Below are positions 20,881 to 23,789 of a DNA stretch of 24,794 bases, in pieces (position 1 is the first letter of the stretch; each line of letters starts with the position of its first letter). The DNA comes from a virus. The notes beneath the pieces are model-generated. The model did not search any database and was not told the DNA's origin. It saw nothing but the letters and a program-made list of their open reading frames with translations. A program made the translations under genes and the position numbers. The DNA is taken from positions 1-24,794 of the IMG/VR virus record IMGVR_UViG_3300020312_000020. One strand, 5' to 3'.

Positions 20881-20903
20881 TGGGGAAAATAGTGGACACT
20901 TCC

Positions 20904-22215: not shown

Positions 22216-22479
22216 TTAGTCAACTGGTCTATTCGGGTTGCCCAGTTGTGGGATGACATGGAAATCAACAACATTAAACAGTTTATCGAAGATACATTCA
22301 TTGACTTGTGCAATCATGTTTCTTTTAGTCACAAACTGTTTTTTCTTAGTTGTATAATAACCCTCAGAGTCTAGGATAGTTTGTATTTTTAAAAACCATC
22401 TTTCTGAGGTGTCACCATTAACATTCTTGACTGGATACCAATCATAAATGGTTTCTTTATTGGATGAGATTAATTGCAT
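22216..22479 (-). CDS. Hypothetical 87-aa protein
   Basis: Function not recognised. It begins MQLISSNKETIYDWYPVKNV, then RWFLKIQTILDSEGYYTTKK and a basic KKKQFVTKRN, ending PQLGNPNRPVD. The mix of beta and basic patches could bind nucleic acid, but no family is visible. It is coupled to the 36-aa gene by TAATG and is followed by the terminator at 22178-22205. A 62-aa frame on the plus strand is a shadow. Confidence 0.7.
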   Translation of the reverse strand: MQLISSNKETIYDWYPVKNVNGDTSERWFLKIQTILDSEGYYTTKKKQFVTKRNMIAQVNECIFDKLFNVVDFHVIPQLGNPNRPVD

Positions 22480-22589
22480 TAAACCTCATCATCTGTTGCT
22501 AGATAGTCATCAATAACTGCCAACAGTTCTTCAGAGGTTTGTGCATCCTCAAGAAGATTAAACAATGCAACTTCAGAATTAAATGCCAT
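22479..22589 (-). CDS. Very small acidic protein, 36 aa
   Basis: ATG at 22589, TAA at 22481-22479 overlapping the next ATG. It begins MAFNSEVALFNLLEDAQTSE and ends with ELLAVIDDYLATDDEV, a strongly acidic amphipathic helix pair. No clear Shine-Dalgarno; the leader contains the nested hairpin at 22622-22702. Function not recognised. The coupling and codon pattern support it as real. Confidence 0.6.
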   Translation of the reverse strand: MAFNSEVALFNLLEDAQTSEELLAVIDDYLATDDEV

Positions 22590-22621
22590 CGGATTGATAG
22601 GATAGAGTGGATAAGGTGAGA

Positions 22622-22702
22622 GAAACAAAAACTGGACTTACGAGTCAGTTACTGTGAGAGGCATAACCCATGACTCCAGATGAGCAATGCCAGTTTTGTT
22701 TC
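22622..22702 (-). ncRNA. Candidate structured RNA: nested long hairpin before a small operon
   Basis: An outer stem of 13 base pairs (GAAACAAAACTGG with CCAGTTTTTGTTTC, one bulged T) encloses an inner stem GAGTCA/TGACTC (22671-22676 with 22642-22647), which encloses GTTA/TAAC. The whole is 81 nt and symmetric enough to fold on either strand. A -10 TATATT (22713-22718) would start transcription right before it. A 22-codon ORF (MGNKTGIAHLESWVMPLTVT and two more residues) fills it, from ATG at 22706 to TAA at 22638, so a leader peptide with attenuation-like folding is an alternative. Confidence 0.5.
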
Positions 22703-22712
22703 CCATGATGTT

Positions 22713-22718
22713 AATATA
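22713..22718 (-). promoter_or_regulatory. Candidate extended -10 TGTTATATT
   Basis: TATATT on the minus strand preceded by TGT (extended -10 form). It is placed so that transcription would begin at the foot of the hairpin at 22702. The -35 position (TACCCA) is weak. Confidence 0.4.
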
Positions 22719-22755
22719 ACATGGATTCTACCGAATGGGTAGAATAGTGGACACT

Positions 22756-23286: not shown

Positions 23287-23655
23287 TTATCTCAAATAAA
23301 GATAACCACCTGCCCAATCTGTAAAGTTTGGGTCATGTAATTTACTCCTGTCATTATCATTGAAGAAGTTAAATCTTACATGCTTTGCTGGTGCTTTCCA
23401 TGATGCTGGTTTATATACATCACCAGTTTTTTTGTCAATGAAAGCATGGACTGATGTATCTTCCTGAATGATTTTAATATACTTCTTACCGAATGACATG
23501 CTAAAAGTAACAGGTGCATGAGAATAATCTGGATATCTTGAGATATAATTTTGCTCAAGACTTCTGCATAGTTGCCAAGTCCATTTTTCTATTCTCTCAG
23601 ATTCTTGTAGTTTTTCATCTGGGAATAGTGCGATAGTTGGAACTGCTGTTACCAT
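23287..23655 (-). CDS. Conserved hypothetical protein, 122 aa
   Basis: I place the start at ATG 23655 (MVTAVPTIALFPDEKLQESE), which has GGAG at the right distance; a GTG at 23712 would add 19 residues with no ribosome site. The C-terminal half SVHAFIDKKTGDVYKPASWK followed by APAKHVRFNFF and ending DWAGGYLYLR is highly characteristic of a protein seen in many marine myoviruses, with no known function that I can state. KKTGDVYKPASWKAPAKHVR looks like a beta hairpin with a basic face. Confidence 0.82.
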   Translation of the reverse strand: MVTAVPTIALFPDEKLQESERIEKWTWQLCRSLEQNYISRYPDYSHAPVTFSMSFGKKYIKIIQEDTSVHAFIDKKTGDVYKPASWKAPAKHVRFNFFNDNDRSKLHDPNFTDWAGGYLYLR

Positions 23656-23789
23656 TGATACTCCGATAGTGTGAATAGGTGTGGAGAGGTTCGACTTAAA
23701 GACCTTTTCCACCCATCTATGCTAACTCGTTTGGTGAGTCTAATTAAGATGGGAATGAGGTCACCCTTGCCTCCACTCTTTTAATATAC

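Follow-up and report, generated by a model that had tools for sequence, protein, structure and literature searches.

What is the element on the minus strand at positions 22618–22706 of the virus record IMGVR_UViG_3300020312_000020, where a hairpin, a short open reading frame (ORF) and the start of a small gene lie within little more than 100 nucleotides (nt)? The window analysed here is that whole IMG/VR record of 24,794 bases. Its genes are of T4-like cyanophage type (gp6-like baseplate wedge, heme oxygenase, DNA methylase and helicase), and it showed 71–75% DNA likeness to Kyanoviridae isolates (e.g., P-SSM7 and S-TIM4) across the helicase and methylase; judged by these matches, the window is a T4-like cyanophage fragment. 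The original prediction, made from the letters of the sequence, had offered a leader-peptide attenuator, a self-contained RNA, or a stable 5′ cap that protects the message. We concluded, with a probability of about 60%, that the element is an mRNA leader folded into a 5′-closed rod, which would block 5′-end-dependent mRNA decay and leave the ribosome site alone unpaired.

All of the predicted parts were present in the sequence: a nested hairpin with an outer stem, an inner GAGTCA/TGACTC stem and a GTTA/TAAC tip, holding a 22-codon ORF. The extended −10 box ahead of it was found as TATATT with a preceding TG (22713–22718, minus strand), and it places the predicted transcription start (+1) at 22706. 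The leader element runs from there to a conserved 3′ end, CTCTC, at 22618. The outer stem, P1, consists of a 5′ arm GGGAAACAAAACTGG (22690–22704, minus strand) and a 3′ arm CCAGTTTTTGTTTCTC (22620–22635, minus strand), both backed by the covarying inner P1 pairs and the compensated insertion described below; the stem GGAAACAAAACTGG/CCAGTTTTTGTTTC contains a single bulged U. With +1 at 22706, just two bases (AU) precede the first P1 base pair, and the stem closes at 22620. The small gene predicted to follow is a 36-amino-acid gene, MAFNSEVALFNLLEDAQTSEELLAVIDDYLATDDEV (22479–22589, minus strand), whose start at 22589 lies 28 nt past the CTCTC end. The fold energy of the hairpin was moderately unusual (z = −2.5; 3 of 200 shuffles folded equally well), and it is the comparative evidence, not energy alone, that makes the hairpin compelling.

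That evidence began with a 22-nt exact match in an intergenic stretch of phage P-SSM2, where the layout proved to be the same (ATGGGAAACAAAAGAGG ... CCTCTTTTTGTTTCTCTCACC). Pattern scans of IMG/VR and searches of phage records together yielded 60 distinct elements of 77–169 nt in ~78 non-duplicate occurrences; some 75 records, IMG/VR contigs and phages taken together, show the same design, among them those of the cultured phages P-SSM2, P-SSM5 and P-SSM7. These counts are lower bounds because the scans required exact arms, and the occurrences are not all independent because many contigs are related. The exact two-arm pattern had no matches in genome contigs, which were scanned as a test of host origin. 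Searches of Rfam 15 returned no family at its gathering score for the window, and none at gathering score for the relatives even with permissive E-values. The leader element belongs to a widespread family without an Rfam match. We found no description of it in the open literature; subscription papers (e.g., on Syn9 transcript starts) lay mostly outside that search, and an earlier mention is possible.

The position of the element relative to promoter and gene was regular. A −10 hexamer (at least 5 of 6 matches) stood at a fixed place in 57 of the 59 elements with enough upstream sequence, in 45 of these 57 exactly 8 nt ahead of GGG, and control scans shifted by 15–30 nt gave 0–4 hexamers. The stem begins 0–2 bases from the predicted +1. 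Downstream, an ORF of at least 35 codons starting with ATG followed within 400 nt in 70 of 80 occurrences. In 50 of the 70 cases with a downstream gene the ATG lay 18–28 nt past the end of the element, so that the ribosome-binding stretch after the stem is left unpaired; a Shine-Dalgarno motif was recognizable in 8 of 33 spacers, and many of the larger rod-to-ATG distances hold additional structured modules. The downstream proteins fell into ~17 unrelated groups, mostly of unknown function where tested. Small genes resembling the 36-amino-acid gene of the window also stood behind the element in three relatives (L015, L061 and L063; L numbers denote contigs and records).

This regular spacing bears on whether the hairpin could be a self-contained small RNA that ends at its U-rich 3′ arm and so serves as its own terminator. 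An own promoter, a strong stem and the U-rich arm (CCAGTTTTTGTTTC) of the canonical elements fit such an RNA. However, the gene 18–28 nt downstream in most cases leaves no room for a second promoter, and the U tract is absent from rods with another P1 (a second rod in the window and that of S-SSM5, both described below). We consider a small RNA improbable, and this part of the original prediction is disfavoured.

The original prediction had also suggested that stem covariation be set against codon constraint in homologous loci, and in the elements compared the stems covary, and the encoded peptide is not conserved beyond its first four residues. The constant arms themselves are not independent evidence, since most scans searched for both of them; the regular position described above, the pairing and the peptide comparison are. 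Just inside the constant arms, pairing averaged 4.55 bp, compared with 2.80 ± 0.21 bp when right arms were re-dealt among elements (maximum 3.42 in 2000 deals). Nine elements with a −10 box, that of P-SSM7 included, carried an extra A in the left arm together with an extra U in the right arm; no element with the uncompensated form of this insertion had a −10 box, compared with 31 of 31 of the canonical form. In two phages the outer pairs themselves were swapped, to GUCGAAAC/GUUUCGAC in P-RSM1 and GCGAAAAC/GUUUUCGC in S-SSM4. Nineteen sequences with the commonest interior (type A), aligned with N's in place of the variable apical insert, contained 12 pairs with double changes. The number of double-change cells was 57 (24.4 ± 3.7 when shuffled), and 91.7% of cells were paired, compared with 49–62% on sliding. 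Covariation and the compensated insertion both point to selection on stem pairing, and the outer stem is the conserved, covarying part of the element.

Constant ends around a variable interior, nested modules (P-SSM5 L025, L062) and identical flanks around different interiors might also be expected if the element were mobile DNA, a small insertion sequence whose terminal inverted repeats are the arms and whose hairpin is a by-product. Yet the inverted ends are locked at a fixed distance to both the −10 box and the start codon, P1 sequences differ among phages and stay paired, and the compensated insertion speaks for pairing as the selected property. A mobile element is therefore very improbable.

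The 22-codon ORF (22638–22706, minus strand; MGNKTGIAHLESWVMPLTVTDS and stop) fared differently from the stem. Of 59 elements, 54 have an ATG where the transcript is predicted to begin, which would suit translation of a leader peptide in an attenuator. The peptides read from it, however, ranged from 7 to 42 codons (median 10), and in 55 elements MGNK alone was constant, a constancy forced by the stem sequence; the ATG is absent from some elements and from P-SSM7, and the frame is shifted in others. Because the ORF is unconserved beyond the stem-forced MGNK, we ruled out a leader peptide. There was likewise no conserved ORF with regulatory codons and no operon common to the elements, given the ~17 unrelated protein groups downstream. 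An attenuator consequently receives next to no credence from us, and the predicted full overlap of coding and folding, although present in the sequence, is incidental: it is the stem sequence that is kept, not the peptide.

Inside the outer stem, the elements were found to be modular. Interiors are of several types, built from recurring internal-loop modules in which the loop bases are conserved and the stems replaced. Four of these are M1 (UA/ACAUGA), M2 (UUAAUUA/AGCAUA with a GUAAA loop), M3 (GGCA/GUAAGUCC) and M9 (GGCAUGGGUGA/UUUAAGUCGAACC). Modules can also be nested, an M3-type hairpin lying within the type A loop of P-SSM5 and of L062, and three pairs of loci (L049/L080, L008/L033 and L056/L068) share identical flanks around different interiors. 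In the window, GTAAGT (22636–22642, minus strand) is the 3′ side of M3, a module also seen in other rods and as hairpins of its own. Next to it lies an interior module, UCUGGAGUCAUGGGUUAUGCCUCUCACAGUAACUGA (22643–22680, minus strand; bounds approximate), common to contig L139, where a 23-nt core is exact. The predicted inner stem falls within this module. Relatives of the window interior were limited to the near-identical copies L001 and L002 and this one module match, and in L139, whose rod has a different P1, the GAGTCA/TGACTC stem is absent; the module is closed there by ACAUCA/UGAUGU instead. Of the stems expected to be kept in relatives, the outer one was and the inner one was replaced, which leaves the register of the inner stem uncertain. 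An L139-like fold forced on the window sequence costs 3.5 kcal/mol, which leaves both interior folds as candidates. The window interior combines M3 with the L139 module, the module being kept and the inner stem not, and the interior folds, that of the L139-type module above all, are less certain than P1.

Conservation of loop bases in replaceable stems raises the question of whether the rod is a cis-regulator that governs when or how strongly a set of phage genes is translated, through M1, M2, M3 and M9 loops that bind either a ligand or a protein of the phage or its host. The loop bases are kept while the surrounding stems are replaced, and the modules recur across rods and phages, as regulation of this kind would have it. 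On the other hand, the same gene with identical flanks carries different interiors in the three pairs of loci named above, so no single module is needed per gene, and the genes behind one module have no common function. Nor do the elements resemble a riboswitch, with one aptamer core ahead of related genes: interiors differ before the same gene, and the genes are unrelated. We regard cis-regulation as a somewhat unlikely account of the element as a whole. A tentative extension, to which we give a slightly better chance though still well short of even, is that T4-like cyanophages possess a combinatorial kit of RNA modules (at least M1, M2, M3, M9 and the L139 module) that recombination nests and exchanges within the 5′-closed rod. 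Phage or host factors would recognize the modules, and the leader would act as a 5′ cap joined to an exchangeable regulatory address.

Returning to the 5′-closed rod, we found related leaders with other stem sequences in S-SSM4, S-SSM5, P-RSM1, P-RSM6 and P-TIM68. The rod-bearing phages belong to the Kyanoviridae genera Salacisavirus, Palaemonvirus, Greenvirus, Glaucusvirus, Lipsvirus, Emcearvirus and Haifavirus. The window itself contains a second closed leader, rod 2 (23681–23776, minus strand; z = −3.47), with a predicted +1 at 23776 after TATATT (23788–23783), a P1 of GUGGAGG/CCUCUCCAC, and modules M9 and M2. Behind it lies a DUF7717-like gene (23287–23655, minus strand) with a probable start at ATG 23655, 25 nt past the rod; an ORF starting at GTG 23712 begins inside rod 2, and ATG 23655 is likely the true start. 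Rods with a non-canonical P1 (window rod 2, S-SSM5, S-SSM7, L087, L139 and L147) likewise start no more than one or two bases from the predicted +1. In S-SSM7 there was no gene start within 40 nt of the rod.

Three annotated coding sequences, CPXG_00171 (L140, P-RSM6), PHM1_076 (L144, P-HM1) and SSSM7_050 (L145, S-SSM7), start inside or cover M9 rods, and they are probably mis-annotated. In a small sample (rod 2, S-SSM4, S-SSM5, S-SSM7, P-RSM1 and L087) the base at position 2, counted from the predicted +1, was U or C, never G. By analogy with Bacillus subtilis RppH, for which a preference at this position is known, the absence of G may be another route of RppH avoidance. In P-SSM2, three tandem rods, M3 and M2 modules included, occupy 56566–56933 (L090 6566–6933) between PSSM2_070 and PSSM2_071. 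A further conserved module, GAGG-GGATGT-CCTC-CGGTTCGCAACCG-ACATCC, lies past a leader at L005 1588–1650 (P-SSM2 ~56.04–56.10 kb). It might fold into a pseudoknot, and it can also be translated as MDVPLGSQPKKELTS with a strong AGGAG ahead of it; conservation of the frame does not extend beyond the module.

Judged by sequence, the structure, position and overall architecture of the leader, its base pairing and the exchange of modules are well supported; from these we infer its function, together with the exact +1, the protection of mRNA and the cover by ribosomes. In the proposed mechanism, transcription from 22706 would yield a cyanophage mRNA whose 5′ leader has the closed rod (22706–22620, minus strand) as its structured part. 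The rod would make the 5′ end inaccessible both to the removal of pyrophosphate and to 5′-end-dependent nucleases of the host (RNase E type). An initiating ribosome, given the usual footprint of the 30S subunit, would cover most of the remaining unpaired leader (18–28 nt), and the life of the phage mRNA would be prolonged as a result. The interchangeable internal-loop modules would be kept as structured filler or as protein-binding sites. Among the readings of the original prediction, the third, a protective structure at the 5′ end, agrees best with the position at +1, the covariation, the fixed distance to the start codon and the indifference to the downstream gene.

Stems that start with the first bases of a transcript are known to slow 5′-end-dependent decay. 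Such a hairpin makes mRNA more stable and hinders RppH, and the B. subtilis enzyme needs at least two unpaired 5′ bases and prefers G at position 2 (PMC3997798). RNase E rises in Prochlorococcus during infection by P-SSP7 (PMC9692554). Several points weigh against the protective rod. The RNase E evidence comes from P-SSP7, a T7-like podovirus, and not from a T4-like phage (PMC9692554). The conservation of bases in the internal loops hints at something beyond a passive cap, and a simple protective hairpin would need neither the wide range of lengths nor the varied module content. Lastly, a module-free scan for 5′-closed leaders near −10 boxes gave no excess over shuffles past the canonical ones (58 compared with ~42 expected). 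Such a generic census returned the canonical rods plus noise and had no power, and the non-canonical rods are therefore claimed solely where shared modules identify them.

In kind, the leader belongs with the known 5′ stabilising stem-loops, as a variant of them. In the ompA and papA leaders of Escherichia coli and the aprE leader of B. subtilis the stem also lies at or next to +1 with no more than two unpaired bases before it, and the downstream ribosome site is also free (PMC3997798). The cyanophage design differs in being common to many unrelated genes and phages, in its rod of 55–170 nt and in its exchangeable conserved modules, and its stabilising effect would be by analogy with those leaders. 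The manA, wcaG and PhotoRC-II motifs are, like this element, structured RNAs in potential 5′ untranslated regions of T4-like cyanophages and marine metagenomes (PMC2864571), but those Rfam families do not match it, and the cyanophage leaders are not tied to one gene class. Leaders of T4-related phages (gene e and others) also form hairpins, but these contain the translation initiation region and prevent early translation (PMC3014915), whereas the cyanophage rod leaves that region free. Antisense RNAs of P-SSP7, in work cited in PMC9692554, are said to shield mRNA from RNase E, a similar aim; as described there they form a duplex with a second RNA across the message, whereas the rod is an intramolecular 5′ stem.

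A gene-independent, covarying 5′ leader in many cyanophage genera would offer a testable answer to how phage mRNA survives where RNase E rises. The module kit and its spread across cyanophages appear new, and the mix-and-match use of internal-loop modules seems a mode of RNA construction not described before. The leaders also account for some of the start codons annotated within rods and for some apparently ‘empty’ intergenic stretches.

A check for known RNAs found no tRNA or tmRNA. The sequence AGTGTCCACTATT occurs twice on the minus strand of the window (22743–22755 and 20888–20900), directly behind two stop codons and upstream of −10 boxes, and similar GTGKCACA motifs stand ahead of promoters in many relatives. 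In P-SSM2 at ~66.0–66.1 kb (L090), a ATCTCGACTAGAT-like palindrome is repeated three times around a TATAAT box, and these repeats resemble operator sites.
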